Part shown: positions 30,937 through 45,873 of the stretch, in pieces
How positions within the stretch are numbered: position 1 is the stretch's first letter
How the letters are laid out: the number at the start of each line of letters is the position of its first letter
Source of the DNA: Acrocarpospora phusangensis
GTDB lineage: Bacteria > Actinomycetota > Actinomycetes > Streptosporangiales > Streptosporangiaceae
Reading direction: 5' to 3'
DNA length: 64,000 bases
NCBI RefSeq assembly: GCF_016862995.1
Contig: NZ_BOOA01000004.1
Coordinates: 1 to 64,000 of the forward strand
Notes under the pieces: generated by a model
Database searches by the model: none
What the model was told of the DNA's origin: nothing
Seen by the model: only the letters and a program-made list of their open reading frames with translations
Made by a program: the position numbers and the translations under genes

Positions 30937-31869
30937 TCAGTTGGCGGCGCGGTCGGAGAGTCCGCCGTTGACTCGCAGGGCCGGCTCGTCCTCGACCGAG
31001 ACGACCTTGAAAGTCTGGGTGTCCTCGGCGGGCGCGCCGTCCGAGTCGTCCGCGTTGCTGTAGACGACCACGACAAGGTCGTCGTTGTCCAGAGAGTCAC
31101 CGGCTTTGGTCCGCCACTTGCTGTCGCTGCCGTTGACCGGCTTGATCGGCGTGGCGGGCGCGATGGCCGGCCGGAACGCGGGACGGTACGCGGGCTTGAT
31201 CGGCTCAGGGTACCTGCGCCGGGTGGCCCGCAGCTGCGTCACCACGTAGACCAGGCCGAAGCCCAGCACGAGCGTGCCGCCCAGCGCGCCGCCGACCGCC
31301 ATGATCTTGGAGGTCAGCAGGATCTCGGGGGTGGAGGCCGGCACCACATCCACGATCCAGATATAGGTGGACTTGGGTGCCCGCAGCGCCTGCTGCCGCT
31401 TGGTCAGCTCGTCGCGGATGTACTGCTGGGCCCGCTTGGTGGTGTCCAGCACCCGCGCCGGAGTGTCGCTCTCGACCTCCAGGTAGATGAAGGGACCGCT
31501 GGTGCTGATGCCCATCAGGTCGGGGTTGGACCGGCCGTCGTCCACGATCATCTCGGTCGGGCCGCCCTTGACCACGCCGACCTGGGTCCGCACGTCCAGG
31601 CCGTTCATGGCCAGGATCAGGATGCCGGCCGTGGTGCGCAGGCCGTCGTTGAACTGGAGCAGCGGGTTGGTCAGGCCCTGCGGCTTGGAGGGGTCCGATG
31701 GGAGCGTTCCACCGGCCGCAGGCGTGGCGAGGACCATGGACGCCGTCGACATGTAACGTGCGGGAACCAGGAACCACGCCGTGACCGCGGCGGCCACGGC
31801 CAGCACGATGAGCGGCGGCCCGATGGACTTTCTTCGAACGAGCCGAAGAAGCGTCCTCCAGAAATCCAT
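30937..31869 (-). CDS. Wzz/YveK-like chain-length protein (copy 1)
   Basis: 310 residues. MDFWRTLLRLVRRKSIGPPL start, LTNPLLQFNDGLRTTAGILI and RAPKSTYIWIVDVVPAST mark homology to the 30121 gene. Two membrane helices (about 17-37 and 190-212), then a long cytoplasmic tail that is basic at first and acidic at the end (LDNDDLVVVVYSNADDSDG), not shared with copy 2. No Walker motifs. The 163-base gap upstream (31870-32032) is less GC-rich and may hold a promoter. Confidence 0.78.
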   Translation of the reverse strand: MDFWRTLLRLVRRKSIGPPLIVLAVAAAVTAWFLVPARYMSTASMVLATPAAGGTLPSDPSKPQGLTNPLLQFNDGLRTTAGILILAMNGLDVRTQVGVVKGGPTEMIVDDGRSNPDLMGISTSGPFIYLEVESDTPARVLDTTKRAQQYIRDELTKRQQALRAPKSTYIWIVDVVPASTPEILLTSKIMAVGGALGGTLVLGFGLVYVVTQLRATRRRYPEPIKPAYRPAFRPAIAPATPIKPVNGSDSKWRTKAGDSLDNDDLVVVVYSNADDSDGAPAEDTQTFKVVSVEDEPALRVNGGLSDRAAN

Positions 31870-32032: not shown

Positions 32033-32902
32033 TCATCTGCCGACCGCCATCCGGACCAGGCGGCGGCCCCGCCGCGCGGCCACGCGTCGCTGGCGGCGCA
32101 GGTACATGCGGTAGACGGCGGCGCGGGCCCGGCGCTGCTGCTCGGGCGTGAGCCCGGCGTGCTCGGTGGCCCACTGCAACGTCTCCCGGCACTGCAGGGC
32201 GGTCGCGAAGCGGGCCCGCCACGGCGCGACGTCCAGGCGGCGGGCGATGTCGGTCATCGGCTCGGCCCGCCAGTGCCGGTGGGCGAGGACCTCGGGCACG
32301 TGTCCCCAGGGACCGGCCAGGGCGAGCTTGGTGGCGAACACCTCGTCCTCGCGGAGCATGTTGCGGCGCGGGATGGCGGCCACCGGCGCGCGGCGCATCA
32401 TCGCGTACAGGGGGTCGATCTGGAGGTAGCTCTCGTTGAGCAGGCGCAGCATCTCGGCGAAGCGCTCGACCGGGTCGTCGGATCTCAGTCCGGTGCCCCG
32501 GTACTCGCCGACCTGGGTGCTGCCGTCCGCCACCTCGTACGACAGTTGTGTGGTCACCAGGATGAGCCGCTCGTCGGCGGCGAACTCCTGGAGCGTGCGG
32601 GACACGAAGTGGGGCTCCAGCCGGTCGTCGTCGCCGATCCAGCGGAAGAACGTGCCCTGGGCGTGCTCGATGACGTGGATGAAGTTGTTGAGCAGGCCGA
32701 TGTTCTCCGGCTGCCGGTGGTAGTCGATCCGGCTGTCGGCGCGGGCCAGTTCCCGGGCGACCTCCTCGGTGCCGTCCGTGGAGGCGTTGTCGGAGATCAC
32801 CAGCTGGAGCTCCTGGTGGTCCTGGGCGAGGACCGACCGCACGACGTCTGCCAGCCGGTCCTCGGCGTTCCGCACCGGAAGCCCGATGGAGACGAGAGAC
32901 AT
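32033..32902 (-). CDS. family 2 glycosyltransferase
   Basis: 289 residues, GT-A fold: SIGLPVRNAEDRLADVVRSV, LVISDNASTDGTEEV and the DxD-like FFRWIGDDDRLEP. C-terminal 60 residues are strongly basic, suggesting membrane association. AAAGGAG lies 5 bases before the ATG. Downstream of the flippase gene with a 28-base gap. Confidence 0.87.
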   Translation of the reverse strand: MSLVSIGLPVRNAEDRLADVVRSVLAQDHQELQLVISDNASTDGTEEVARELARADSRIDYHRQPENIGLLNNFIHVIEHAQGTFFRWIGDDDRLEPHFVSRTLQEFAADERLILVTTQLSYEVADGSTQVGEYRGTGLRSDDPVERFAEMLRLLNESYLQIDPLYAMMRRAPVAAIPRRNMLREDEVFATKLALAGPWGHVPEVLAHRHWRAEPMTDIARRLDVAPWRARFATALQCRETLQWATEHAGLTPEQQRRARAAVYRMYLRRQRRVAARRGRRLVRMAVGR

Positions 32903-32930: not shown

Positions 32931-34436
32931 TTAGCGGGATCTGCCGGGGATGAGGTCGCCCACTTTGCCGCCCAGATCCTTCAGGACGGCCCCGGGAACC
33001 ACGATCAGCACATAAATCAGGATTCCGGCTCCGCCCGCCACGATCAACTCGACCAGCGGCCCATGGTCCACCAGGTACGACACGAGCACGGTCACCGCGC
33101 AGGAGACGACGCCGCCCACCAGCGGCCGTACCAGCGCGGGGAAGATCGGACCGAGCCGGACGCCGGCGCGGCGCAGCGCCAGGGCGGCGAGCGGCAGGCC
33201 GACCAGCGTGGCCGCCGTCAGGTGCCCGATGGCCGCGCCGCGGATGCCGTCCAGCTGGGTGCCGGCGTAGACGGCGGGCACCAGCGCGATACCGGTGCCC
33301 AGGTTCATCCACATGGTGGCCTTGGCCGCGCCCTGCCCGGTGAGGATGTCGAACGCGAACATGGTGACCATGCGGACGATCATCAGCACGCCCAGGAAGC
33401 GCAGCACGCCCGCGGCCTGGTCCCAGCGCGGCTCGTAGAGGAACGCGATCAGCGGGTGCGCCAGCGCGGCCATCACCACCGAGATCGGCAGGATCGCGGA
33501 GACCAGCAGCGGCACCGAGCGCTGCACCCCGAGGGAGAGCGAGTCGGCGTCGTTCTCCGCCAGCCGGGAGAAACTGGGAATCGAGACGTACCGGATGGCG
33601 GTCCCGATCAGGCCCGGCACCCAGCTGGACACGTTGAACGCGAGCAGGTAGTACCCGTTGGCCTCCTCCCCGTGGACGGCGCCCACGATGACGAAGCCGA
33701 CGTTGAGCAGCAGCGCCTCCAGGCCGGTCCCGGCCGCGGACGGCAGGCCGAACCGGAGCAGCTGGGCCCCGATCGCCCGGTCGTAGCCGAGCTTCAGCGG
33801 CACGTTGGCGGAGACGAAGATGATGACGCCGGTCACCACGGCGGCCGACAGCTGGCCCCAGGCGAAGCTGTAGGCGCCCGCGCCGTTGACGGCCAGCGTG
33901 ATCGCCACCGCCGCGTTGACCACGAACCCGGACAGGATGGCCTTGGTCAGCTTGTCCTGCTCGAACCGGCGCAACAGCGCGGCGGCCCGTACGGCGGTGA
34001 CGGCCTCGACCAGGATGACCGCGGTGAGGATGCGCACCACCGGGGTCGCGTGCGAACTGCCGGCCAGTTCCGAGAACATCGGCGCGCCCACGTAGAACAG
34101 CCCGTAGAGCAACACCGCCGAGAAGAACGACAGCACGGTGGCCGTCGGCGCCATGTCCTCCAGCTTGCCGCGCCACTGCACGGTCGCGGCGATGATCCCG
34201 ATGTCCTTGATGGTCATCACGAACTGGGTGGCCGCCAGCGCGACGGCGTAGATGCCGAAGTCGTCGGGATCGATGAGGCGGACCAGGATGAGTCCCATCA
34301 CGAAGGACCCGCCGCGTAACACCATGTTGCCGAGCAGGCTCCAGCGCAGCCCCCGGCTGGCCTTGCGACCGATTACCCCCACATGCTCGGCCGCCTCGCC
34401 CTCCTCCACCAGCTCTGTGTCCTGGTTTCTGTCCAT
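32931..34436 (-). CDS. polysaccharide flippase (Wzx-like, MOP superfamily)
   Basis: 501 residues with about 14 membrane helices. N-terminal GLRWSLLGNMVLRGGSFVMG and LIDPDDFGIYAVALAATQFV match the polysaccharide_synt/oligosaccharide flippase group. It would move lipid-linked units across the membrane for Wzy. Codon 40 is a TTA (34317-34319). Starts 9 bases after the twin-Cys gene, so in the same transcript. Confidence 0.88.
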   Translation of the reverse strand: MDRNQDTELVEEGEAAEHVGVIGRKASRGLRWSLLGNMVLRGGSFVMGLILVRLIDPDDFGIYAVALAATQFVMTIKDIGIIAATVQWRGKLEDMAPTATVLSFFSAVLLYGLFYVGAPMFSELAGSSHATPVVRILTAVILVEAVTAVRAAALLRRFEQDKLTKAILSGFVVNAAVAITLAVNGAGAYSFAWGQLSAAVVTGVIIFVSANVPLKLGYDRAIGAQLLRFGLPSAAGTGLEALLLNVGFVIVGAVHGEEANGYYLLAFNVSSWVPGLIGTAIRYVSIPSFSRLAENDADSLSLGVQRSVPLLVSAILPISVVMAALAHPLIAFLYEPRWDQAAGVLRFLGVLMIVRMVTMFAFDILTGQGAAKATMWMNLGTGIALVPAVYAGTQLDGIRGAAIGHLTAATLVGLPLAALALRRAGVRLGPIFPALVRPLVGGVVSCAVTVLVSYLVDHGPLVELIVAGGAGILIYVLIVVPGAVLKDLGGKVGDLIPGRSR

Positions 34437-34445
34437 GACGCTCGC

Positions 34446-35471
34446 CTAACTCACGGGGAGATCCTCAACGCGCTCCAGCCAGATCTCACGCCAGAACGGC
34501 ACGAACTCGCGGGGGCAGTTGAGGTTGTAGACACCACTACACACGATCCCGTCCAGGACGATGCAGGGATTCTTCATTTGCAGCATTCGGCCCGTGGGCT
34601 CGTCGATGCACTGGTCCACCCGCGCGACCACCCGCGCGGTCTGCCCGCAGAAGCGGGCCATCTCCTCCTCGAATCCCATCCCCCGGTTGAGCTGGTCTTT
34701 GTTGAGGGTACGCAGGATCTCGGCCTTCGGTTTGATGCGCACCAGCTCGCCCGGCTGGAGGTCCAGCACCTCGGTCGGGGTGGCGCCTTCGGCGAAGCCC
34801 CGCACGAAGCCCCAGCGCAGCCCGCCCTTGATCCACAGCCAGCGCGGCAGGAAGCGCCGGCTCAGCTTCTGGTAGCGGTTGAAGGCGCCGACCAGCATGC
34901 CGCGCAGGGTGGCGACGACGCCGGCGTTGCCGCTGCGCACGTCCACCACGTACTGCTTCATGTCGGTGAAGGGCACGCAGGTGGGCGCGGCGCGCAGCAG
35001 TTCGGTGGACTGGCAGGAGAAGCGTTCCTCACCCTCGGGTCCCGGCTCCTTGCGGGTGTTGACCTCCAGCAGCGGCAGCATGCGGTCGGGGCGGGGCGTG
35101 GGAGTGGTCGGCGTGGTGGGCGGAGTGCCGGGCTCGACCCGCTTGAGCCAGGCCTCCTTCCAGTACAGGGTGCACGCGGTCTGGCAGCCGCCGTGCGCGC
35201 TGCCGTCGCAGCGGGTGCCGGTCAGGTGAACGGCACGTTCCATTTTGCGCAGGCCGGTCCGGCTGATGGTGTCGCACAGCTTGTGCGCGACCTTGTGCAC
35301 GGTCAGCCGCTGCCCGACGAACTGCAACATCTCCGGCATGAAGGGCAGGCTGTCCAGTTCGCCCTTCTCGTCCAGCGTCGCCAGGATCTCGGCCTCGCTG
35401 CGCACCTCGACCAGGTCCCCGACCTTGAGATGGAGTACCTCGGCTGGATCGGCGGTCCCTAACCGCGTCAT
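34446..35471 (-). CDS. twin Cys-motif protein of unknown function
   Basis: 341 residues containing two related domains: residues about 12-112 and 233-335. Each starts EVL(H/D)L...G(D/E)LV.(V/I)...AEIL.TL and ends F/YW(K/R)E.WL(K/E)RV. Cys positions match in order: C66/C288, C88/C311, C96/C319, with 8-residue spacing between the last two in both. Extra Cys at 100, 153, 165, 275 and 303. The pattern suggests a metal or cluster site in each half, or a redox protein. No signal peptide. Codon 4 is a TTA. The ATG overlaps the DUF4910 stop (ATGA). I do not recognise a named family. Confidence 0.75.
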   Translation of the reverse strand: MTRLGTADPAEVLHLKVGDLVEVRSEAEILATLDEKGELDSLPFMPEMLQFVGQRLTVHKVAHKLCDTISRTGLRKMERAVHLTGTRCDGSAHGGCQTACTLYWKEAWLKRVEPGTPPTTPTTPTPRPDRMLPLLEVNTRKEPGPEGEERFSCQSTELLRAAPTCVPFTDMKQYVVDVRSGNAGVVATLRGMLVGAFNRYQKLSRRFLPRWLWIKGGLRWGFVRGFAEGATPTEVLDLQPGELVRIKPKAEILRTLNKDQLNRGMGFEEEMARFCGQTARVVARVDQCIDEPTGRMLQMKNPCIVLDGIVCSGVYNLNCPREFVPFWREIWLERVEDLPVS

Positions 35472-36724
35472 GCCACTTGCTCCTTCAGTAGTCCCGCGTC
35501 GTGGAGTGCGCGCGCCGCCTCCGACAGCACCGCGAAGGGCTGCCCGGCGCGCTCGGCGATGTCCAGCAGGGTGTGCTCTCCGTCGGAGAGGTTCAGCACC
35601 CAGAGCATGGCCATCTGGAGTTCTTTGGTGTCGCTCCGGCCGCCCAGCGAGGCGTACAGGCCGCGCCTGCCGAGCTGGGGCTCGCCGTACGGGCTGAGGT
35701 TGAGGTAGCGGCGGTTGTTGTCCAGGACCTGGACGATGTCCCAGCAGGTGTCCAGGGTGTCGGCCATCGCCTCGGCGGAGACGAAGTCCAGGTTGTCGCC
35801 GGAGGTGTGGTACTCCGGGTACCCGGCGTACGTGGTCCTGGTGAGGGAGCCGACGCCGAGGTTGAAGCCCGGCGAGCAGAACTGGCGCTCGTCGTAGCCG
35901 TACGGGGTGAAGTCCAGGATGGTGTGCTCGCGGTCCTTCAGCACGTGCGCGGCCACCTGGTCGATCTCCGAGCCCCGGCGGCTGCGCTTGTACGTGAGCG
36001 GGCCCCGGTCCCCGGCGCAGGCGAGCGTGAAGCCGTGCCTGACCCGCTCCACCCGGTTGCGGGCCAGCCAGGTGATCGCGCCGATGGTGCCGGGCGCGAA
36101 CAGGAACCGGTAGGTGTACCAGGGCTCGGTCCCGGCCAGGCGTTTGGCCAGCTCGACCGCCACCGCGATGCCGGCCAGGTTGTCGTTGGCCAGCGAGGGG
36201 TGGCAGGTGTGGCAGGAGATGATCACTTCGTCCGACACCCGGCCGGGCACCACGTGCTCGGCGTAGGTGAGGTGGCCGTCCTCGAGCGTGGAGTCGATCA
36301 GCACCTCGTACGGGCCCTCCCCGAACCCGTCGAGGGTCTCCTGGGCCAGGCAGAAGCCCCAGGTCTCCCCGTAGTAGCTGGTCCGGTACGGCACCAGCGA
36401 CGGCTGCTCGGGCAGCGTGTGCAGACGCGGCCGCAGCTCCGCCAGCGACATCGTCCCCGACACGGGCACGCTGTAGCCGAGCACGTGCAGGTTGGAGGCG
36501 CCGAAGTCGACGACCCGGTTCCCGTCCGCGTCCTGTATATAGGCGTCCCGGATGTTCCACTCTTTGGGGATCGTCCAGTCGAGCACCTGGGTGCCGGTCG
36601 GCACCTCGTGCACCTGGAGCGGGATGGACTCGCCGACGATCTCCAGCGTGCGCCGAACGCCGTCGCCGGTGATGCTCCGGCAGATCGGGTAGAGCCGTTC
36701 CACCAGAGCGAACAGGTCGCTCAT
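35468..36724 (-). CDS. DUF4910 aminopeptidase-like protein with winged-helix tail
   Basis: 418 residues. Start LYPICRSITGDGVRRTLEIV, PKEWNIRDAYIQDADGNRVVD and the metal-binding run IISCHTCHPSLANDNLAGIA are typical of DUF4910, related to M28 zinc peptidases; later candidate ligands are YGYDERQFCS and GYPEYHTSGDN. Residues about 345-418 look like a winged helix. Despite the fold it recurs in surface-sugar loci, so it may act on a glycan-linked amide instead of a peptide. ATG at 36724 overlaps the epimerase stop. Confidence 0.82.
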   Translation of the reverse strand: MSDLFALVERLYPICRSITGDGVRRTLEIVGESIPLQVHEVPTGTQVLDWTIPKEWNIRDAYIQDADGNRVVDFGASNLHVLGYSVPVSGTMSLAELRPRLHTLPEQPSLVPYRTSYYGETWGFCLAQETLDGFGEGPYEVLIDSTLEDGHLTYAEHVVPGRVSDEVIISCHTCHPSLANDNLAGIAVAVELAKRLAGTEPWYTYRFLFAPGTIGAITWLARNRVERVRHGFTLACAGDRGPLTYKRSRRGSEIDQVAAHVLKDREHTILDFTPYGYDERQFCSPGFNLGVGSLTRTTYAGYPEYHTSGDNLDFVSAEAMADTLDTCWDIVQVLDNNRRYLNLSPYGEPQLGRRGLYASLGGRSDTKELQMAMLWVLNLSDGEHTLLDIAERAGQPFAVLSEAARALHDAGLLKEQVA

Positions 36725-37746
36725 GACACCGGCCTGAGGGTGCCGTCGACGGTGCCGGCGCCCTGCCGGTCCGCCAGCCGGGCCAGCCGGGTGAAGCGCC
36801 GGGCGAAGTCGTGCGCGGTGAGCCCGAACTTCTCGTACGCGTCGACCAGCTCGTGCGCCCCCGCCTTGACGGTCCAGCGGGCCTGGTAGTCCGGCAGCGC
36901 CGCGCGGATGCGGGCGAAGTCCACCCGGTAGGAGCGCGGGTCGGCCCCGGCCTCGCCGGTGATCACCAGCTTGGAGCCGGGCACGGCCGCCACGACCTCC
37001 TCGGCGATCTGGGCGACGGTGAGGTTGTTCTGCTCGGTGCCCACGTTGAACGCCTTCAGGTGCACGGCCTCGATGGGCGCGGCCAGCACGGCGGCGAACG
37101 CCTCGGCGATGTCCTGCGCGTGCACCAGCGGCCGCCACGGCGTGCCGTCGGACAGCACCCTGACCTCGCCGCTGAGCACGGCGTGGCCGACCAGGTTGTT
37201 GAGCACGATGTCGGCGCGCAGCCGGGGCGAGAAGCCGAACGCGGTGGCGTTGCGCAGGAACACCGGCGTGAAGCCGGAGTCGGCCAGCGCGACCAGGTCG
37301 TCCTCCACCCGCACCTTCGACTCCGCGTACGGCGTGACCGGCCGCAGCGGGGCGTCCTCGCCGACCAGGCCGTCGCCGCCGGAGGCACCGTAGACCGAGC
37401 AGGTGGAGGCGTACAGGAAGCGCTTGACGCCGGCGTCCTTGGCGAGGCGCGCCAGCCGTACGGAGGCGTGGTGGTTGATGTCGTAGGTGAGTTCGGGGGC
37501 GAGCGAGCCCATCGGGTCGTTGGACAGGGCGGCCAGGTGGATCACCGCGTCCACGCCGGTGAACACGTCGGCGCCGACGTCGCGCAGGTCCACGGGCGGG
37601 CCCGGCGGGTCGGCGGGGGCGGGGCCGAGAACGCAGTCGGCGAACAGGCCCGAGTCCAGGCCCACGACGTCGTATCCGGCCGCGGTGAGCACCGGAGCCA
37701 TCACCGTGCCCAGGTAGCCCTGATGGCCGGTCAACAGCACGCGCAT
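36721..37746 (-). CDS. NAD-dependent sugar epimerase/reductase
   Basis: 341 residues, extended SDR: VLLTGHQGYLGTVMAP, HLAALSNDPMG, active-site S/Y in ASTCSVYGASGG and VTPYAESKVRVE. Position in the cassette suggests it works on the nucleotide sugar made by the RfbF-like enzyme. GTG-free start at ATG 37746; the PIG-L gene ends 3 bases upstream. Confidence 0.88.
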   Translation of the reverse strand: MRVLLTGHQGYLGTVMAPVLTAAGYDVVGLDSGLFADCVLGPAPADPPGPPVDLRDVGADVFTGVDAVIHLAALSNDPMGSLAPELTYDINHHASVRLARLAKDAGVKRFLYASTCSVYGASGGDGLVGEDAPLRPVTPYAESKVRVEDDLVALADSGFTPVFLRNATAFGFSPRLRADIVLNNLVGHAVLSGEVRVLSDGTPWRPLVHAQDIAEAFAAVLAAPIEAVHLKAFNVGTEQNNLTVAQIAEEVVAAVPGSKLVITGEAGADPRSYRVDFARIRAALPDYQARWTVKAGAHELVDAYEKFGLTAHDFARRFTRLARLADRQGAGTVDGTLRPVS

Positions 37747-37748
37747 GC

Positions 37749-38396
37749 CTAGCTTCCTCCAGTGAGATCAACGGTCAGTTTGGCCACGTGGAAGGCCTCC
37801 GCGTAGCGGGCGTTGCATTCGATGCCGCGGATCCGGGCCAGGCCGAGGAAGGCCTCCCGGTCGTACCACGGCCGGTGCCGCTGCGAGCCGTAGTGGCGTT
37901 GCAGCAGGTCGACTTTGGCTTCGGCGAGTTCGGGGGTGAGCGGCTGGTAGACCGAGGGGCGGCCCAGGTCGCCGTCCCACTTGACGATCTCGTAGCCGAA
38001 GGTGTGGTGAGCCCGGAACGCCGTCGGGACGAGCTTGGCCAGGCCGCGGTGGTCCTGGTGGGCGTCGCCCGGGTGCGGGGCGAAGATCAGGTCGGGGTCG
38101 GTCTGGGCGCGCAGCTCCTCGACCGCCTCCTTGGCCTCGTCCCAGTGCGCGGGCAGCCGGCCGTCGGGCATCTTGTGCACGGTGATTCGCAGGTCCGCGC
38201 CGGGGCAGAAGGCGGCCAAGGCGGCGCGCTCCTCATCCTCCCGGGGCGTGCCGCCGCCGGACAGGACGAGCGCGTCCACCCGTACGCCGGGGCGCGCGGA
38301 GCAGATCGCCAGCAGCGTGCCGCCGGCGCCGATGGCGATGTCGTCGCAGTGCGCGGCGAGCGCGGCGATCCGCTGGGGACCGCTGTGCCTGATCAT
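37749..38396 (-). CDS. PIG-L/LmbE family deacetylase
   Basis: 215 residues. Zinc-site motifs AAHCDDIAIGAGGTL (AHxDD) and APHPGDAHQDHRGLA (HxDHR). Members remove N-acetyl groups from GlcNAc-type substrates. ATG at 38396 overlaps the nucleotidylyltransferase stop (ATGA). This would create a free amino group on a sugar intermediate. Confidence 0.88.
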   Translation of the reverse strand: MIRHSGPQRIAALAAHCDDIAIGAGGTLLAICSARPGVRVDALVLSGGGTPREDEERAALAAFCPGADLRITVHKMPDGRLPAHWDEAKEAVEELRAQTDPDLIFAPHPGDAHQDHRGLAKLVPTAFRAHHTFGYEIVKWDGDLGRPSVYQPLTPELAEAKVDLLQRHYGSQRHRPWYDREAFLGLARIRGIECNARYAEAFHVAKLTVDLTGGS

Positions 38397-39172
38397 GCGC
38401 CGCGCTCCCACAGGGCCCATGGCCGTTCACCGCGTGAGTAGGCCTCGTCCAGGGCGATCCGCTCCTTGACCGTGTCGGTGGGCTTCCAGTAGCCGCGGTG
38501 CCGGTAGGCCATCAACCGGCCGCGCTTGGCCAGTTCGGCGCAACCGTCCGCGACGAGGTCACCATTCTCCGGGATGTGGTCGAAGACCTCCTGCCGAAGT
38601 ACGAAATATCCTCCGTTTGCCCATAAAGGCATCTCGGAGATGGGCGTGATGCCCTCCACCTCGCCGCTGTCGCTCACCTCGATGGCGTGGAAGGTCGCCG
38701 GCGGCGGGACCACCAGCATCGACGCGCCCGCGTCACTCGCCGCGAACCGGTCGATGATCTCCGGCAGCGGCGCGTCGGTGAGCACGTCGGCGTAGTTGGC
38801 CAGGAACATCTCGTCGCCGTCCAGGTAGTCGCGCACCCGGCGCAGCCGCTCCCCGATCGGGGAGTCGATGCCGGTCTGCACGAACGTGATGGACCAGTCC
38901 GAGATGTCGGTGGACAGCAGCTCCACCCGGCCCGACCTGAGCACGAAGTCGTTGGACGTGGTCTCCCGGTAGTCCAGGAAGAAGTCCTTGATGTGCTGCG
39001 CGCCGTACCCGAGGCAGAGCACGAACTCGGTGTGGCCGAAGTGCGCGTAGTACCGCATCACATGCCAGATCAGCGGGCGCGGGCCGACGAGCTGCATGGG
39101 CTTGGGGACGTCTCCGGGGGTGCCGCTGCGCATCCGCGTGCCGTACCCGCCGCAGAAGAGGACGACCTTCAC
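38393..39172 (-). CDS. glucose-1-phosphate cytidylyltransferase-like (RfbF type)
   Basis: 259 residues, right length for RfbF. Begins KVVLFCGGYGTRM, then GDVPKPMQLVGPRPLIWHVM, with the EFVLCLGYGAQHIKDFF and NDFVLRSG segments of that subgroup. It activates a hexose-1-phosphate with a nucleotide. The usual partner CDP-glucose 4,6-dehydratase is not in the window, so the product may be used differently. GTG at 39172 overlaps the methyltransferase stop. Confidence 0.88.
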   Translation of the reverse strand: MKVVLFCGGYGTRMRSGTPGDVPKPMQLVGPRPLIWHVMRYYAHFGHTEFVLCLGYGAQHIKDFFLDYRETTSNDFVLRSGRVELLSTDISDWSITFVQTGIDSPIGERLRRVRDYLDGDEMFLANYADVLTDAPLPEIIDRFAASDAGASMLVVPPPATFHAIEVSDSGEVEGITPISEMPLWANGGYFVLRQEVFDHIPENGDLVADGCAELAKRGRLMAYRHRGYWKPTDTVKERIALDEAYSRGERPWALWERGA

Positions 39173-40374
39173 ACGATCTCCAGGGTCGGGATGGGGAAGA
39201 CCAGCCGGCCGCCCCACTCGTGGACGTAGGACAACTGCTCCGACAGCTCCGTACGCAGGTTCCACGGCAGCACCAGCACGTAGTCCGGCCGGTCGGCGGC
39301 GATCTGCTCGGGGGCGTGGATGGGGATCCGGGTGCCGGGCGTGAACCTGCCGTGCTTGTACGGATTGCGGTCCACCGTGTAGGCGAGCAGGTCGGGGCGT
39401 ACGCCGCAGTGGTTGAGGAGGGTGTTGCCCTTGCCGGGCGCGCCGTACCCGACGACGGTCTTGCCCTCGGCGGCGGCGTCGATGAGGAAACGGAGCAGGT
39501 CGCGGCGGACGCGGGCGACGCGGGCGGCGAACTCGGCGTAGCCGGAGAGCTCGTGCAGCCCGGCGGCCTTCTCCCGGGCCAGGATCTCCTGGACGCGCGG
39601 CCCCGGCTGGCCGGACGGGCGGGCCCAGAGCCGGATCGAACCGCCGTGGGTGGGCACCAGCTCCACGTCCGCCAGCACCAGGCCGCCGCTGGCCAGCGCG
39701 TTCTGCGCGGAGGCGACCGTGTAGTACTGGAAGTGCTCGTGGTAGACGGTGTCGTACTGGTTGAGCTCCATCAGGGTGAGCAGGTGCTGGACCTCGATGG
39801 AGACCCAGCCGTCGTCGGCGACCAGGGCGCGCAGGCCCTTCGTGAAGCCGATCACGTCGGGGATGTGGGCGTACACGTTGTTGGCGACGACCAGGTCGGC
39901 CGGGCCGTGCTCGGCCCGCACGGCCGCCCCGGTCTCGGGCCCGAGGAACTCGGTGACCGTGGGCACGCCCTTGTCGCGGGCGGCCTGGCCGACGTTGGCG
40001 GACGGCTCGACGCCCAGGCAGCGGATGCCCTTGGCGACCACGTGCTGGAGCAGGTAGCCGTCGTTGCTGGCCACCTCGACGACGAAGGAGGGGTCGATGC
40101 GGTCCACCGCGGCGTCCACGAAGGAGCGGGCGTGCTCGACCCAGGAGGTGGAGTAGGAGGAGAAGTAGGCGTACTCGGTGAACGTCTCTTCCGGAGTGAT
40201 CAGGGCCGGGATCTGGGCCAGCCAGCAGTCGGTGCAGACCCGCAGATGCAGCGGGTAGGTGACTTCGGGCTCCGCGAGCTGCTCGGCGGTGAGGAACCGC
40301 TCGCACGGCGGCGTGGCCCCGAGATCCACCACGCTCACCAGGCTCGCGGAACCGCACAGTCGACAGGCTGTCAT
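39169..40374 (-). CDS. NDP-sugar C-methyltransferase family protein
   Basis: 401 residues. N-terminal zinc-ribbon-like Cys pairs (CRLCGS, then LRVCTDCWLAQ), central SAM site FVVEVASNDGYLLQHV with VEPSANVG, and the C-terminal domain with VGYGAPGKGNTLLNHCGV. This three-part layout is that of TylC3/EvaC-type C-methyltransferases acting on keto-sugars. I prefer the ATG at 40374, 7 bases after AAGGAG, over a GTG at 40380. First gene of the coupled cassette running to 28774. Confidence 0.88.
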   Translation of the reverse strand: MTACRLCGSASLVSVVDLGATPPCERFLTAEQLAEPEVTYPLHLRVCTDCWLAQIPALITPEETFTEYAYFSSYSTSWVEHARSFVDAAVDRIDPSFVVEVASNDGYLLQHVVAKGIRCLGVEPSANVGQAARDKGVPTVTEFLGPETGAAVRAEHGPADLVVANNVYAHIPDVIGFTKGLRALVADDGWVSIEVQHLLTLMELNQYDTVYHEHFQYYTVASAQNALASGGLVLADVELVPTHGGSIRLWARPSGQPGPRVQEILAREKAAGLHELSGYAEFAARVARVRRDLLRFLIDAAAEGKTVVGYGAPGKGNTLLNHCGVRPDLLAYTVDRNPYKHGRFTPGTRIPIHAPEQIAADRPDYVLVLPWNLRTELSEQLSYVHEWGGRLVFPIPTLEIV

Positions 40375-40380
40375 CGCCAC

Positions 40381-40589
40381 ACTCCTTGCCGCACACCATC
40401 ACGCGATTGGTGCGTCGCATGTTTTTCGGACGTATCAATGACGCGGCTGGGATTGGAGTGGTTGGCAGACAATCTGGACTCCCCCCAATGAATCAGAGCC
40501 TGCTACCTAAGATTCGGGCAAGGACCCACATTCGTTACATCTAGCCTGGTCAGCCCGGTTACCGCCTCTTTTGTGGCATGCTGCGCGGC
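40381..40589. promoter_or_regulatory. divergent intergenic region
   Basis: 209 bases between the C-methyltransferase and rmlC starts, less GC-rich than the genes. It must hold promoters for both the minus-strand cassette and the plus-strand rmlC-GT2 pair. No clear paired -35/-10 or operator stands out to me. Confidence 0.4.
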
Positions 40590-41183
40590 ATGGAACCTCT
40601 CAGCATCGACGGAGCCTGGTGCTACACCCCCCGTGTCCACCGCGATTCCCGGGGTGACTTCCTGGAGTCTTACCGCGCCGGTGAGCTGGAGTCCGCCACC
40701 GGGCGTCCGATGGACCTCGCGCAGGTGAACTTCTCGGTCTCGCGCAAGGGCGTCCTGCGCGGGGTGCACTTCTCCGACGTGCCACCTGGCCAGGCCAAAT
40801 ACGTCACCTGCGTGGCCGGTTCCGTGCTGGACGTGGTGGTGGACATCCGGGTGGGCTCGCCCACGTTCGGGAAATGGGAGACCGTCCTGCTGGACGATGT
40901 CAGCCGCAGAAGCGTCTATTTATCCGAGGGGCTCGGGCACGGGTTCCTCGCGCTGAGCGATCAGGCGGCGGTCTCGTATCTGTGCTCCACGCCGTACGCG
41001 CCGGGGCGGGAGCACGGGGTGCATCCGCTGGACCCGGCGCTGGGCATCGACTGGCCGCTGGACGGCGAAGCCGTGCTGTCGGACAAGGACAGGGACGCGC
41101 CGACGCTGCAGGAGGCGCTGGAGGCCGGGCTGCTGCCCGACTACGCGACCTGCGTGGAGTTCACGAAGGGGAACCTGGCATGA
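40590..41183 (+). CDS. rmlC: dTDP-4-dehydrorhamnose 3,5-epimerase
   Basis: 197-residue cupin with canonical RmlC residues: catalytic His in VLRGVHFSDV, Lys in GQAKYVTC, Tyr in VSYLCSTPYAP with the second aromatic six residues later. YLSEGLGHGFLALSD is typical. With rmlA, rmlB and rmlD in the same locus it completes dTDP-L-rhamnose synthesis. I choose ATG 40590 (an ATG at 40578 is possible). A rare TTA lies at 40920-40922. Confidence 0.9.
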   Translation: MEPLSIDGAWCYTPRVHRDSRGDFLESYRAGELESATGRPMDLAQVNFSVSRKGVLRGVHFSDVPPGQAKYVTCVAGSVLDVVVDIRVGSPTFGKWETVLLDDVSRRSVYLSEGLGHGFLALSDQAAVSYLCSTPYAPGREHGVHPLDPALGIDWPLDGEAVLSDKDRDAPTLQEALEAGLLPDYATCVEFTKGNLA

Positions 41184-42028
41184 CCGTCAGCATCGTGATC
41201 CCGGCGCACAACGAGGAGCGGGTGCTCGGCCGGCTGCTCGCCGGACTCCAGGCCGAACCGGGCGAGTTCGACATCGTGGTGGTGGCCAACGGCTGCACCG
41301 ACGGCACCGAGCGGGTCGCCGAGTCCCACGGCGTACGGGTGGTGTCCACGCCCGTGCCGTCCAAGCGGGAGGCGCTGCGCCTCGGCGACGAGGCCGCCGC
41401 GGGCTTCCCCCGCATGTACGTGGACGCCGACGTCGAACTGGGGGCCGCCGACGTGCGCGCCCTGGCGGCGGCGCTGGACGCGGGCTCGCTGGCGGCGGCG
41501 CCGGAGCGGGAGCTGCCCATGACCGGCCGCCCGTGGGTGGTGCGCCGCTACTACGCGCTCTGGTCGCGCCTGCCGCACGTGCGGGACGGGCTGTTCGGGC
41601 GCGGGGTCATCGCGGTCAGCGAGGAGGGCAACCGGCGGCTGCGGGAGCTCCCCCAGGTGATGGCCGACGACCTGGCCGCCTCGCACGCGTTCAGCGCGGC
41701 GGAGCGCACCGTGGTCCGGCACGCCTTCGCCCGCATCCAGCCGCCGCGCACGGTCGCCGACCTGCTGAAGCGCCGGGTCCGCGCGGCCACCGGCGTCGGC
41801 GAGTGGGAGCGGAACTCCACCGTCACCGTACGGACCAGTCCGCGCGACATCCTGGCCATCGTGGCCCGCGAGCCCCTGCTGGCCGACGCCGCCGCCGTGT
41901 TCCTGGCGGTGACCGTGCTGGCCAGGCGGCGCGCCAACCGGGCGATCAGATCCGGCGACTACACCACCTGGCTCCGCGACGAGAGCAGCCGGGCTCAGGA
42001 CCTGCCGGGCTCGAACAGCCAGGCGTAG
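41180..42028 (+). CDS. family 2 glycosyltransferase
   Basis: 282 residues: SIVIPAHNEERVLGRLLAGL, VVVANGCTDGTERVA and the DxD in YVDADVEL. ATG overlaps the rmlC stop (ATGA). The remaining part lacks a second domain; the C-terminal helix-rich segment with VAREPLLADAAAVFLAVTVL may associate with the membrane. Its 3' end overlaps the convergent WecG-fusion gene by 34 bases. Confidence 0.87.
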   Translation: MTVSIVIPAHNEERVLGRLLAGLQAEPGEFDIVVVANGCTDGTERVAESHGVRVVSTPVPSKREALRLGDEAAAGFPRMYVDADVELGAADVRALAAALDAGSLAAAPERELPMTGRPWVVRRYYALWSRLPHVRDGLFGRGVIAVSEEGNRRLRELPQVMADDLAASHAFSAAERTVVRHAFARIQPPRTVADLLKRRVRAATGVGEWERNSTVTVRTSPRDILAIVAREPLLADAAAVFLAVTVLARRRANRAIRSGDYTTWLRDESSRAQDLPGSNSQA

Positions 42029-43956
42029 AGCAGCCAGCCCAGCTCGTACGGCCGGCACTCCCGATCGATGGTCACCGGCGGGTAGAGCCGGTCGAGCGTG
42101 GCGAGCCGCGCCCCCGAACTGGCCCGGGTGGCCACCGCGCGCAGCCCGCGTACGATCTTCTTCGGGTCGGCCCTGGCCGCCTTCCGCCAGGTCAGCGCCA
42201 GCTCGTTGTCGATCAGCGACTCGGCGGACTCGGGCCGCTCGGTCATCCACGACAGCCCCTTGGCGATCTCCGCCACGTACGGCGTGCCGCCCGCGTCCGC
42301 CAGGTCCAGCAGCGCCATCGGCGCCATCGCCAGCTGGTGCACGCTGTAGACCGGATACCCCTCCACCACCGACCCCGTACGGGCGTCGTAGTGCCACCAC
42401 CACTGCCCCTGCTCGCCCTGGGCCGTGCAGATGCCGGCGGCGACGCGCTCGGCGGCGGCCAGCGCCTCGGGGTCGCCGACGGCGGCGTGCAGCCGGGCCA
42501 GCGCCTGGAGCGGGTAGACCTGGTCGGCGAAGCAGCCGACGTGCGCCCGGTACCAGGGCACCAGCGTGCCGGACGCCTCGCCGAGCACGTGCCGGTAGAG
42601 CCGGTCGGAGGTGAGCCCGGCCAGCAGCCGCTCGCGCGACCTGGCCAGCCGCTCGTCCCGTACGCCGGCGGCGACGTAGCCGGCCAGCGCCCAGGCGGCC
42701 TCGACGGTGTAGACCTGCGGCGCGGCGCTGTGCTCGGCGTCGCGGTCGGTGAGCGCCTGCACGGCGACGTCCAGCCGGTCGTGCCCGGTCTCGGCGGCGG
42801 CCCAGCAGATGAGGGCGGCGTCGCCGAGCCCGCGCACCTCGGGCAGGCCGTCGATGAGGTGGCCGGCCAGGTCGCGGGCGGTCTCGCCGTTGAGCGCCTC
42901 GCGCTGCTTGTCCTCCGGCAGGGTGGCCACGCCGAGGGCGACGATGGCCGAGTAGCGCACGCTGCGCCCTTCCGGCACGGCGCTCCAGCGGCCGTCGGGG
43001 AGCTGCACTCCGCGCCGGGTGAAGACGAACTCGCCGTCCGCGTATCCGGGGGGCAGCCCGCGGATGGCCAGGCTCACCATGCCCGGCAGGAGGTCAGCGC
43101 CGGACCCCATGAGGGCGATGCGGCGATGCGGTGTCACGTCGTATTCCTCCGTTAACAGAACAGGGGTTCGTTCCTGGATGGGAGCACGGTTCCGGCGCAG
43201 CAGCTCGCCGGCGACCATGAGGATGAACCTGCCGTTGGTCTTGAAGTAGCGCGGCGCCAGCCGGGTGGGCTCCTGGAGCGTGCGGTACAGCCACTCCAGG
43301 CCCAGGCGCTGCCAGGATTCGGGCGCGCGGCGCGTCCAGCCGGCCAGCACGTCGAAGGAGCCGCCGACGCCGTGGATGACCTTCGCCCGGGTGCGCGCCC
43401 CGAACTCGCGGATGAAGATCTCTTTCTTGGGTGAGGTGATGCCGAGGAAGAGCATGTCCGCGCCGGATTCGGCGATCTCGGCGGCCACCTCGCCGGAGTC
43501 CTCGATGGCGAAGTAGCCGTCCCGCGCGCCCGCGATGGGCAGGGCGGGGAAACGCCGCCGGATCTCGGCGAGCATGGCCTGGAGCACCTCGGGCTTGGCC
43601 CCGAGGAAGTAGGCCCGGAATCCGCGCCGCTCGCCTTCGGCCATCAGCCGGACGAACAGGTCGATGCCGGCGACCCGTTCGGGGATGGGGCTGCCGAGCA
43701 CCCGGGAGGCCCAGACGACCGACTGGCCGTCGGCCAGCACCAGGTCGGATTCGACCACCGAGCTGGCCAGCGCCGGGTCGGTGCGCATATTGACGATCTT
43801 GGCCGCGTTCACGACGCCGATGGAGAGGGGCTGCTCCTGGTCGATGGCGGCGACGCAGCGTTCGAGGACTTCTTCCATGGTCAGCGCGTCGAGCGGGGTG
43901 CCGAGCATATATAAACGTCGCGGCTCGGGCATTATCCGCCCGGCAAACGGCATCAT
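41995..43956 (-). CDS. WecG/TagA-type glycosyltransferase fused to alpha-toroid-like domain
   Basis: 653 residues. Residues about 12-250 are a GT26 (WecG/TagA/CpsF) transferase: SIGVVNAAKIVNMRTDPALA, LVLADGQSVVWASRVLG, ADMLFLGITSPKKEIFI and HGVGGSFDVLAGWTRRAPES. Residues about 275-653 are a helical, alpha/alpha-toroid-like domain (QVYTVEAAWALAGYVAAGV, GQWWWHYDARTGSVVEGYPV, VYSVHQLAMAPMALLDLADA) of unknown role. At the junction lies GGAGG (43146-43150) exactly 8 bases ahead of an in-frame GTG at 43137, so the second domain may also be made separately (380 residues). Two TTA codons: 43912-43914 and 43153-43155. Confidence 0.85.
   Translation of the reverse strand: MMPFAGRIMPEPRRLYMLGTPLDALTMEEVLERCVAAIDQEQPLSIGVVNAAKIVNMRTDPALASSVVESDLVLADGQSVVWASRVLGSPIPERVAGIDLFVRLMAEGERRGFRAYFLGAKPEVLQAMLAEIRRRFPALPIAGARDGYFAIEDSGEVAAEIAESGADMLFLGITSPKKEIFIREFGARTRAKVIHGVGGSFDVLAGWTRRAPESWQRLGLEWLYRTLQEPTRLAPRYFKTNGRFILMVAGELLRRNRAPIQERTPVLLTEEYDVTPHRRIALMGSGADLLPGMVSLAIRGLPPGYADGEFVFTRRGVQLPDGRWSAVPEGRSVRYSAIVALGVATLPEDKQREALNGETARDLAGHLIDGLPEVRGLGDAALICWAAAETGHDRLDVAVQALTDRDAEHSAAPQVYTVEAAWALAGYVAAGVRDERLARSRERLLAGLTSDRLYRHVLGEASGTLVPWYRAHVGCFADQVYPLQALARLHAAVGDPEALAAAERVAAGICTAQGEQGQWWWHYDARTGSVVEGYPVYSVHQLAMAPMALLDLADAGGTPYVAEIAKGLSWMTERPESAESLIDNELALTWRKAARADPKKIVRGLRAVATRASSGARLATLDRLYPPVTIDRECRPYELGWLLYAWLFEPGRS
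43135..43150 (-). promoter_or_regulatory. internal Shine-Dalgarno and GTG inside the fused ORF
   Basis: On the minus strand GGAGG, an 8-base spacer and GTG occur in frame at the domain boundary of the WecG fusion. This is a better ribosome site than most real starts in the window, and suggests either two ancestral genes whose stop codon was lost or a second translation product. Confidence 0.6.
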
Positions 43957-44056: not shown

Positions 44057-44917
44057 TCATGAGACGGCCTTGGTCAGGGTCGGCCAAGCCGCGTGCAGTG
44101 CCTCCCGCCAGTCGCGCATGGGCTCCAGGCCCGCCGCTACCCAGCCGTCGTGGCCGAGAACGCCGAACGCGGGACGCGGCGCGGGACGGGGATACTCCGC
44201 GCTGGTCACCGGCCTGACCCGGCCCGGGTCCGCGCCCAGCAGGCCGAAGATCTCGCGGGCGTAGCCGTACCAGGTGACCTGGCCGGCGTTGGTGCCGTGG
44301 TAGATCCCGGGGGGCGCGCTGGGCGCGGTGGCCAGCGCGGTCAGCCTGGCGGCCAGGTCGCTGGTCCAGGTGGGCTGGCCGAGCTGGTCGTCCACCACCG
44401 AGACCTCGCCTCCCCCGGCCGCAAGCCTGATCATGGTGTGCGCGAAGTTGGGGCCGTGCGCGCCGTACAGCCAGGCCGTGCGCACGACCGTGCCGCCGTG
44501 GGCGAGCGCCGCCCGCTCCCCGGCCAGCTTGGTCCGGCCGTACGCGTTGACCGGGTTGACCGGATGATCCTCCGGATAGGGCTTGGCGCCCGTGCCGTCG
44601 AAGACGTAGTCGGTGGAGACGTGGATGAGCCGGACGCCCGCGGCGGCGCAGGCCGAGGCCAGGATCTCCACCGCGCGGCCGTTGACGCGCAGGGCCTCGG
44701 GCTCGGCGGTCTCGGCGGCGTCCACGGCGGTCCAGGCCGCGCAGTTGACCACCACGCCCGACCCCAGCTCGCCCACCGCCGCCCGGACCGCCGCCTCGTC
44801 GCACAGGTCGAGGTCGCCCCGGGCCAGGCCAGTCACGGCCTCGCCGCGCTCGCGCAGCAGCGCCACCAGGTCGGTGCCCAGCATGCCGCCGGCGCCGGTG
44901 ACCAGCCAGCGGGTCAC
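44057..44917 (-). CDS. rmlD: dTDP-4-dehydrorhamnose reductase
   Basis: 286 residues, SDR: LVTGAGGMLGTDLVALL, NCAAWTAVDAAE, STDYVFDGTG, YGRTKLAGERA and RTAWLYGAHG are RmlD hallmarks. Last step of dTDP-L-rhamnose synthesis. GTG at 44917 overlaps the rmlB stop (GTGA). A 100-base gap follows before the WecG fusion gene. Confidence 0.93.
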   Translation of the reverse strand: MTRWLVTGAGGMLGTDLVALLRERGEAVTGLARGDLDLCDEAAVRAAVGELGSGVVVNCAAWTAVDAAETAEPEALRVNGRAVEILASACAAAGVRLIHVSTDYVFDGTGAKPYPEDHPVNPVNAYGRTKLAGERAALAHGGTVVRTAWLYGAHGPNFAHTMIRLAAGGGEVSVVDDQLGQPTWTSDLAARLTALATAPSAPPGIYHGTNAGQVTWYGYAREIFGLLGADPGRVRPVTSAEYPRPAPRPAFGVLGHDGWVAAGLEPMRDWREALHAAWPTLTKAVS

Positions 44918-45873
44918 GGAATCGGCTCCCACCAGGACTGGTTGTCCGCGTACCACTTGACCGTGGCCGCCAGCCCCGCGTCGAAGGAGACCTCCGGCGC
45001 GTACCCGAGGGCGCGCAGCCGGCTGTCGTCCAGCGAGTAACGCCGGTCGTGGCCCTTACGGTCGGGCACCCGGCGGATCATGTCCTCGGTGGCGCCCAGG
45101 ATGTCCAGCAGCCGGGCGGTCAGCTCCAGGTTGGTCAGCTCCGCCGTGCCGGCGATGTGGTAGACCTCGCCGGGCTCGCCGACCTCGGCCACCAGCTGGA
45201 TGCCCGCGCAGTGGTCGTCCACGTGGATCCAGTCCCGGATGTTCCCGCCGTCGCCGTACAGCGGCACGGTCAGACCGCGCAGCAGGTTGGTGATGAACAG
45301 CGGGATGACCTTCTCCGGATGCTGGTACGGCCCGTAGTTGTTGCCGCACCGCGTGATCGACACCGGCAGCCCGTGCGTCACCGCGTACGCCCGGGCGATC
45401 ATGTCACCGCCCGCCTTCGCCGCCGAGTACGGCGACCGGGGCGCCAGCGGCGCGCTCTCGTCCCACGAGCCGCTCTCGATCGAGCCGTAGACCTCATCCG
45501 TGGAGACCTGCACCACGCGCCCGACCTCGGCCGCCAGGCACGCCTCCATCAGCGTCTGCGTCCCCAGCACGTTGGTACGGACGAAGTCCGCCGCGCCGTC
45601 GATCGACCGGTCCACGTGCGACTCGGCCGCGAAGTGCACCACGACGTCGTGCCCCGGCACCACCTCGGCCAGCAGCTTGGCGTCGCACACGTCACCGTGG
45701 ACGAAGTCGTACCGCCCCTGGACGGAGGCGAGGTTGGCCAGGTTCCCGGCGTACGTCAGCCGGTCGAGCACCGTCACGGCGGCCCCGGCGAAAGCCGGAT
45801 ACCGGCCGGAGAGCACCTGCCGTACGTAGTTGGATCCAATGAACCCGGCACCGCCGGTGATGAGAAGCCTCAC
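44914..45873 (-). CDS. rmlB: dTDP-glucose 4,6-dehydratase
   Basis: 319 residues: LLITGGAGFIGSNYVRQVL, HFAAESHVDRSI, STDEVYGSIE (the T-D-E dehydratase triad), YSAAKAGGDMIARAY and GPYQHPEKVIPLFI. Makes dTDP-4-keto-6-deoxyglucose. GTG start at 45873. The 76-base gap to rmlA contains GATATATC (45914-45921), which may be part of an internal promoter. Confidence 0.94.
   Translation of the reverse strand: MRLLITGGAGFIGSNYVRQVLSGRYPAFAGAAVTVLDRLTYAGNLANLASVQGRYDFVHGDVCDAKLLAEVVPGHDVVVHFAAESHVDRSIDGAADFVRTNVLGTQTLMEACLAAEVGRVVQVSTDEVYGSIESGSWDESAPLAPRSPYSAAKAGGDMIARAYAVTHGLPVSITRCGNNYGPYQHPEKVIPLFITNLLRGLTVPLYGDGGNIRDWIHVDDHCAGIQLVAEVGEPGEVYHIAGTAELTNLELTARLLDILGATEDMIRRVPDRKGHDRRYSLDDSRLRALGYAPEVSFDAGLAATVKWYADNQSWWEPIP

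Follow-up and report, generated by a model that had tools for sequence, protein, structure and literature searches.

A four-gene core with two nested partners in a predicted surface-sugar cassette of Acrocarpospora phusangensis and unrelated bacteria

What sugar might be made by a run of coupled genes that includes a relative of RfbF and no RfbG dehydratase? The question is raised by six genes of Acrocarpospora phusangensis in a 64,000-nucleotide stretch of contig NZ_BOOA01000004.1 (assembly GCF_016862995.1, positions 1 to 64,000), hereafter the window. All six lie on the minus strand, spanning 40380 to 34446, and encode, in order, a C-methyltransferase (MT), a sugar nucleotidylyltransferase (NT), a PIG-L/LmbE de-N-acetylase, an NAD(P)-dependent extended short-chain dehydrogenase/reductase (SDR, an 'epimerase' by family), a DUF4910 protein and a twin-Cys protein (TWC). 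An earlier note on this DNA had proposed a six-gene, stop-start coupled sugar-modification cassette from which the usual RfbG dehydratase is missing. The order and the coupling were confirmed, with four-base overlaps, usual in actinobacterial operons, at the MT/NT, NT/PIG-L, SDR/DUF4910 and DUF4910/TWC junctions and a two-base gap at PIG-L/SDR. The gene content supports a sugar-modification role, and no match to RfbG was found at E ≤ 1e-30 in the locus or across the whole window genome. The genes are linked, as the note had it, but they do not form an indivisible six-gene system: the actual unit is a core of MT, NT, PIG-L and SDR with two nested add-ons, TWC and DUF4910.

This arrangement emerges from 121 genomes of the same order, Streptosporangiales, which were searched separately for the window's type of nucleotidylyltransferase (type A, NT-A; see below), for TWC and for DUF4910. 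NT-A was present in 28, TWC in 26 and DUF4910 in 24, and the three sets are nested, every DUF4910 genome having TWC and every TWC genome having NT-A. NT-A thus occurs in 26/26 genomes with TWC versus 2/95 without it (Fisher p = 2e-24, uncorrected for kinship). All four core genes were found in each of the 28 genomes bearing NT-A, the window's included. At the loci of the 25 other TWC genomes, all six genes are present in 23, in the window order in 22 and rearranged in one (L133); in the remaining two (G034 and G060) TWC is separate from the core, either some 12 kb away from NT-A or on a different contig. The core is complete in these two and in the two NT-A genomes that lack TWC (L208-L211). 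Presence is patchy within genera: in genus g2 five genomes carry the cassette while at least G003 and G016 do not, and in genus g4 it is present in G007 but not in G015.

The earlier note also had the impression that parts of the set recur in surface-sugar loci of unrelated bacteria. The neighbourhood search that it suggested, with DUF4910 and TWC as bait, found co-occurrence in the order and elsewhere, a recurrence stronger than had been claimed. DUF4910 was used to search genome contigs, and the best 80 of 104 loci were kept. By tblastn, MT, NT, PIG-L and SDR lie beside DUF4910 in most Nostoc-like loci, several Bacteroidota-type loci, one Gemmatimonadetes and one Eisenbacteria metagenome-assembled genome (MAG), Mesorhizobium and Kaistia; Nitrospira has MT, NT and PIG-L beside DUF4910, without SDR. 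Among 396 actinobacterial genomes the NT matches fell into two classes, at identities of at least 48% (type A, 13 genomes) and at most 42% (type B, 38 genomes). PIG-L adjoins NT in 13/13 of the type-A genomes, and DUF4910 is at the locus in seven of the 13, one copy being a fragment where the contig ends. We chose 31 loci for the presence of NT-A and grouped them into 23 lineages, the labels of which (such as Mycobacteriales for family f6) are guesses. PIG-L accompanies NT-A in all 23 lineages, SDR in 19, MT in 18, an RmlC-like epimerase in 16, DUF4910 in 17 (inflated by its use as bait), a class-III aminotransferase in seven and TWC in five; absences in this count are upper bounds, because several contigs end early. 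The clustering of open reading frames (ORFs) behind these counts includes shadow ORFs of GC-rich DNA, and its MT and SDR lineage counts match those from tblastn.

Further genes accompany these loci. The class-III aminotransferase was seen in 19 loci, both cassette loci and other DUF4910 loci (L051, L053, L058, L060, L061, L144-L147, L150 and others), and also in the TWC loci L137, L139 and L142; Aminotran_3 was detected in the one protein scanned. A PhyH-like dioxygenase lies near the cassette as 16 ORFs in 15 loci (L041, L053, L060, L064, Streptosporangiales loci and others), and the one that was scanned scored below the Pfam cut-off. Three loci of the actinobacterial family f6 (L163, L164 and L166) have the core on stretches that lack DUF4910 and TWC; behind the core come an RmlC-like gene and another Methyltransf_13-like protein (by eye), and the product of these loci is perhaps a doubly branched sugar.

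The window NT (38393..39172, 259 aa) has the Pfam NTP_transferase domain and matches the glucose-1-phosphate cytidylyltransferase 1tzf (E 2.5e-47). Its nearest NCBIfam model, TIGR02623 for the same enzyme, gave 195.5 bits and so did not reach the cut-off of 300.25. The F-x-E-K motif, corresponding by our count to Glu178 and Lys179 of the 1tzf chain and presumably involved in sugar binding, is present in 0/40 type-A and 30/30 type-B proteins. The two types are separated by a single branch with a support of 100 (SH-like approximate likelihood ratio test; tree of 66 rows), and type A is, as judged from sequence, a clade of its own within the RfbF relatives. The gene settings differ in the same way. 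PIG-L is present in 33/33 type-A loci and RfbG in one (L060), compared with 0/22 and 12/22 for type-B loci not chosen for their context, and with 1/8 for each gene in type-B loci linked to DUF4910. The 22 type-B loci were drawn from the 38 genomes and are mostly the higher-scoring, with two on contigs shorter than 5 kb (L187 and L201); RfbG was cut at 150 bits, leaving L189, L195 and L202 (143-148 bits) uncounted. On the type-A side, 25 of the 33 loci came via DUF4910 or its family search, and in these PIG-L was already known at picking. Loci retrieved for NT alone have PIG-L in 7/7 of one set and 4/4 of another, and PIG-L is present at every DUF4910-bait and order locus having an NT of at least 42% identity.

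The other core enzymes are of recognisable families. MT (39169..40380; 403 aa from GTG 40380, or 401 aa from ATG 40374) exceeds the Pfam cut-offs for Methyltransf_13 and Methyltransf_14 and has the zinc-binding N-domain, the S-adenosylmethionine domain and the C-terminal domain of TylC3/TcaB9-like proteins. Its best PDB matches are the D-mycarose 3-C-methyltransferase 4rv9 (E 1.5e-82) and TcaB9, and a Y-H-E-H motif, which we take to be catalytic, was found in all 34 relatives scored. PIG-L (37749..38396, 215 aa) scores 54.1 bits against a Pfam cut-off of 28.2, and its metal-site motifs are conserved (D-x-H-x-D-H in 40/40 and H-x-D-D in 39/40 proteins scored). The SDR (36721..37746, 341 aa) matches Pfam Epimerase with 148 bits and, as its best PDB match, 6vo6 (E 4.1e-28); it has A-S-T-C-S-V-Y-G, of the S-T-C-S-x-Y-G type, and Y-x-x-x-K, with no T-D-E dehydratase pattern, while RmlB proteins encoded at these loci carry T-D-E-V-Y-G. 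The protein distances of NT, PIG-L and MT are mutually correlated (rho 0.71-0.91, the top of 500 permutations being 0.32; uncorrected for the species tree), a point in favour of a single product. NT-A and PIG-L are the most tightly linked pair, with MT next and then the SDR.

Where a keto sugar for the methyltransferase would come from was assessed through the dehydratases. The check covered 33 cassette genomes, 32 after L061 was left out. RfbG was above cut-off in 3/32 (2/24 of those with type A), with weaker matches in five more. RmlB was present in 29/32 and was not found at E ≤ 1e-60 in the other three, two of which are rated 100% complete. Five dehydratase loci (L173-L175, L181 and L184) had no readable motif, and family scores were used for them instead. 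The window's RmlB dTDP-glucose 4,6-dehydratase (44914..45873, minus strand; TIGR01181, 417 bits at 44920-45870) is its genome's sole match at E ≤ 1e-60. With RfbG in so few of the genomes and RmlB in most but not all, the cassette is therefore independent of RfbG and probably of RmlB; another 4,6-dehydratase may supply the keto sugar.

Of the two partners that the earlier note called unexplained, TWC has no named family and the description stands; for DUF4910 it does not, the structure and the sugar-gene setting being already published. The window protein (35468..36724, 418 aa), of the CA_C2195/Cj1295 family, matches DUF4910, DUF2172 and HTH_47 in Pfam at 359, 124 and 104 bits, and 3k9t at E 2e-142, retaining the single-zinc ligands His, Asp and His. 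Das et al. 2014 (PMC4000134) give the DUF4910 structure and a neighbourhood with epimerase, nucleotidyltransferase and methylase genes, actinobacteria included, report that the M28 catalytic residues are missing and propose sugar (trans)acylation. At the positions named there, the M28 catalytic Asp and Glu are replaced in cassette-linked proteins by Ser (61/64) and Pro (64/64). Cj1295 function is associated, in passages of Hitchen et al. 2010 (PMC3068675), with a di-O-methylglyceroyl-amino group on pseudaminic acid, a flagellar amino sugar; acetyl removal before re-acylation is favoured there as a working hypothesis, and the data fit transfer too. A true peptidase role was considered and dropped.

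Two types of zinc site can be told apart among DUF4910 proteins, and their gene settings differ. The zinc-site Asp position is D in 62/64 cassette-linked proteins, N in 24/27 of those from NeuB-like or AAC(3)-like loci and N in 15/21 of the rest; in the NeuB-like/AAC(3)-like loci (e.g. L072-L110) the Asn is mostly next to Glu (HPSxANNELSGP). A tree was built from 90 of 112 sequences, 22 near-copies being dropped and L053 and L075 excluded for a stop in the matched stretch. The cassette MT is missing for 48 of its rows, 27 of which belong to NeuB-like or AAC(3)-like loci (labels by eye). The cassette label needs one change on this tree against the NeuB-like/AAC(3)-like label and five when the 21 rows with neither marker are counted, and the NeuB-like cluster, recognised by eye in 19 loci, never occurs with the cassette MT. 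The crystallised CA_C2195 is of the NDN type, though its published locus includes a sialic-acid-synthase gene, and two NeuB-like loci (L067 and L070) have DUF4910 proteins that group with the cassette-linked ones on the tree; the two-way split is thus not absolute. Neither this tree split nor the site difference was met in the DUF4910 literature passages, and the passages of later literature contain no biochemistry of the protein.

TWC (34446..35471, 341 aa) appears to be a tandem SH3-like protein. Two repeats of about 105 residues flank a helical linker (internal repeat 33% identical over 105 aa, E 4e-18), and four cysteines of repeat 1 (C66, C88, C96 and C100) are invariant in nine aligned sequences from three phyla. 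Predicted models were of middling confidence (pLDDT 70 and 73). With these, VIA-align placed Mind bomb repeats at the top for both TWC repeats (Z 7.0-7.6, 2.1-2.6 Å over 69-74 residues), a further row being 4xi6 at 13.8 Å over 127. Foldseek gave no match to the TWC models at E ≤ 0.001, nitrile hydratase beta coming first for the whole model (E 2.9e-3), and a comparison of the TWC sequence with those of solved structures gave a single match, at E 0.3. Pfam SH3_15 reached 25.9 bits against a cut-off of 24 in the window protein, the only one of four scanned to exceed it; it was sub-cut-off in L035 and not detected in L064 or L066.

TWC is not distributed like the housekeeping protein that would have spoken against the earlier note's proposal: it occurs in 26 of the 121 order genomes and 4 of the 396 actinobacterial genomes, and it tracks the cassette. 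Outside the order it was found in 2/142 genomes of the Mesorhizobium class (one being the bait's own), in 1/117 cyanobacteria and in 3/395 other actinobacteria, once weakly; type-A genes are found close to it in alphaproteobacteria, Nitrospira and one cyanobacterium. In the samples of 142 and 117, the single new TWC genome of each (G606 and G741, respectively) bears NT-A, PIG-L and SDR together with TWC within one 20-kb stretch, where neither MT nor DUF4910 was seen, and in G295 NT-A is 27 kb from TWC. In Streptomyces, TWC was absent from the loci seen. One genome, G282, has two TWC homologues (46-47%; L140 and L141), which share gene families C308 and C310 and have CopC-like and heavy-metal-ATPase-like neighbours (by eye). 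This setting is a hint that TWC relatives may have a role connected with metals.

The surroundings of the cassette in the window are those of a surface polymer. Downstream of TWC and in the same direction follow, after nine bases, a Wzx-like flippase (32931..34436, minus strand) and, after a further 28 bases, a glycosyltransferase (32033..32902, minus strand), both assigned by eye, the flippase with a homologue downstream of the cassette in family loci; given this close spacing, the likely transcription unit extends beyond the 34446-40374 interval of the earlier note. Divergent from MT is an RmlC-like 3,5-epimerase gene (40578..41183, plus strand; label by eye) with RmlA-, RmlB- and RmlD-like neighbours. 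The RmlC-like gene lies outside the cassette here, in contrast to loci such as Nostoc L040, where it is inside. Besides the RmlA-, RmlC- and RmlD-like genes (by eye), Pfam identifies an O-antigen-ligase-like protein and a transferase of the WecG type, and by content this is therefore an exopolysaccharide locus. The WecG/TagA/CpsF glycosyltransferase (41995-43956, minus strand) has its Pfam match at residues 70-237 of a 653-aa open frame; for the final 400 or so residues Pfam gave nothing at E ≤ 1e-4, and homologues in Microbispora loci align over about 400 residues. Two similar, adjacent Wzz-like chain-length proteins are encoded at 30121-30861 and 30937-31869 (minus strand; by eye). A PADLOC scan gave two weak matches (E 9e-4 and 4e-3), and a defence role was considered and dropped.

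Taken together, we give a probability of about 0.5 to the reading in which the cassette would produce and export a single uncommon sugar, a constituent of a Wzx/Wzy-type exopolysaccharide. The most likely product would be an activated C-methyl amino sugar. Gene content, coupling, co-occurrence and motif differences are observed, whereas the substrate, the nucleotide, the sequence of steps and the parts given to DUF4910 and TWC are inferred. PIG-L requires an N-acyl group and the core lacks an aminotransferase, which makes an N-acetylated sugar the simplest starting point. NT-A would activate a sugar 1-phosphate other than that of glucose, most likely of an N-acetylated amino sugar, and PIG-L would strip its acetyl group. 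MT depends on a keto group, which the SDR, without the dehydratase pattern, could provide by oxidation; from what is known of these families, it may oxidise or reduce a ring carbon, bypassing the usual 4,6-dehydration. MT would then attach a methyl branch at a position adjoining the keto group, an RmlC-like epimerase joining in many lineages, and DUF4910, where present, may alter or remove the N-acyl group. TWC, presumably non-enzymatic and with a possible Cys4 metal site, could serve as a scaffold or as a handover factor to the adjoining flippase and glycosyltransferase. Madurose, an O-methyl rather than a C-methyl sugar, was dropped as a candidate product. More tentatively still, NT-A with PIG-L might constitute a widespread and undescribed entry route to nucleotide-activated branched amino sugars, in which an RfbF-derived enzyme whose sugar pocket has been remodelled passes an acetamido sugar to a dedicated deacetylase in place of RfbG dehydration; TWC might then be the first of a group of Cys4 SH3-like factors handing sugars to surface-polymer machinery.

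Several observations weigh against this single-sugar pathway. DUF4910 and TWC are dispensable, as core-only loci were found. The unbiased TWC finds L170 and L207 show neither MT nor DUF4910 (L170 is cut near the SDR), and G282 has no type-A NT at all (best 34%). Both types of NT have an exception, L144 being type B with PIG-L and L060 type A with RfbG. SDR distances track those of the other proteins weakly (rho 0.23-0.41, and within the permutation range for NT and DUF4910), so the SDR may be exchangeable. Fourteen of the 33 genomes of the RfbG check are MAG records or drafts whose completeness was not seen, and two RmlB-less Streptomyces genomes have GDP-mannose-dehydratase-family matches of 450 and 408 bits. 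Moreover, RmlB stands in the cassette's own locus and could provide the keto sugar. This is the starting point of the main rival explanation, which we consider less likely: MT, the RmlC-like epimerase and the SDR would use an ordinary 4-keto-6-deoxy sugar from a housekeeping 4,6-dehydratase (RmlB or GDP-mannose dehydratase) and turn it into a 3-C-methyl-6-deoxy sugar like kansosamine or vinelose, and NT-A and PIG-L would make a second, separate sugar. The wide presence of RmlB, the 3-C-methyltransferases of 6-deoxy sugars that are nearest to MT, the four loci with NT-A, PIG-L and SDR in which MT was not detected (L165, L169, L170 and L207) and the resemblance of the cassette to the Mycobacterium kansasii gene list described below all fit it. 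It is opposed by the lack of any dehydratase family tied to the cassette, by the three genomes in which RmlB was not found and by the joint variation of NT, PIG-L and MT.

Other alternatives concern single components. That DUF4910 adds the N-acyl group by amide transfer instead of removing one, or is a catalytically dead structural partner, is a serious possibility, though we lean the other way. The loss of the M28 catalytic residues and their regular replacement by Ser and Pro agree with it, as does the transacylation suggested in PMC4000134; the conserved zinc ligands, with Asp nearly constant in cassette-linked proteins, and the preference for acetyl removal in PMC3068675 speak for removal. 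We think it unlikely that TWC handles metals or serves the envelope in general and merely tends towards exopolysaccharide loci. The two copies in G282 and the separate TWC genes of G034 and G060 are what such a protein would show, but it would hardly coincide with NT-A throughout the order, nor with NT-A, PIG-L and SDR in both G606 and G741. Least probable by far is an ordinary exopolysaccharide locus in which the RfbF homologue and PIG-L are unrelated neighbours: every enzyme family here is common in surface-sugar loci, and four-base overlaps are no rarity, but PIG-L accompanies type-A NT in all 33 loci and all 23 lineages, and is in none of the 22 type-B loci not chosen for context.

The cassette belongs to the known nucleoside diphosphate-sugar cassettes for surface polymers, and it resembles several systems in part. 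It shares with the CA_C2195/Cj1295 loci the three-domain protein, the zinc ligands and the neighbourhood of epimerase, nucleotidyltransferase and methylase genes reported in PMC4000134. It differs in the zinc-site residue, mostly Asn in the NeuB-like/AAC(3)-like members, and in having PIG-L, type-A NT and TWC, which the parts of that main text available to us do not single out. NT-A falls in the superfamily of RfbF/DdhA, which with RfbG/DdhB forms the entry to cytidine diphosphate-3,6-dideoxyhexoses; the cassette, however, is without F-x-E-K and, except at one locus, without RfbG, and has PIG-L instead. MT has the domains, best PDB matches and Y-H-E-H motif of the antibiotic-deoxysugar 3-C-methyltransferases TylC3 and TcaB9, but the cassette has no dedicated 4,6-dehydratase and its setting is a surface polymer. 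The Mind bomb MIB/REP repeats (SH3_15) are likened to TWC by the VIA-align and Pfam results; Z remains below 8, and TWC adds the four invariant cysteines and the helical linker. N-acyl kansosamine, an amino sugar C-methylated at position 3, bears an N-acyl group that is itself O-methylated. The M. kansasii lipooligosaccharide locus thought to make it contains, in the portion of PMC4403928 consulted, a glucose-1-phosphate cytidyltransferase, epimerase/dehydratase genes (SDRs), a rhamnose epimerase and also a methyltransferase, all within a single surface-glycan cluster; the gene table there lists no PIG-L, DUF4910 or TWC, a comparison made by annotation and not by sequence. In the open-licence literature, where absence is weak evidence, we found no papers on PIG-L with C-methyltransferase and cytidylyltransferase, on glucose-1-phosphate cytidylyltransferase with PIG-L or LmbE, or on vinelose; kansosamine occurs in one paper, and a paper on virenose in silico comes near the topic, judged by its title. 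DUF4910 is mentioned by name in two papers and DUF2172 in three.

These results bear on how such genes are read. Proteins that lie nearest to 'glucose-1-phosphate cytidylyltransferase' in NCBIfam but have an adjacent PIG-L, as in 23 lineages here, are probably not makers of CDP-glucose. The two site types of DUF4910, with their different gene settings, narrow the reactions to be considered for this family, and TWC, a protein without a clear family, becomes a candidate part of surface-sugar assembly.

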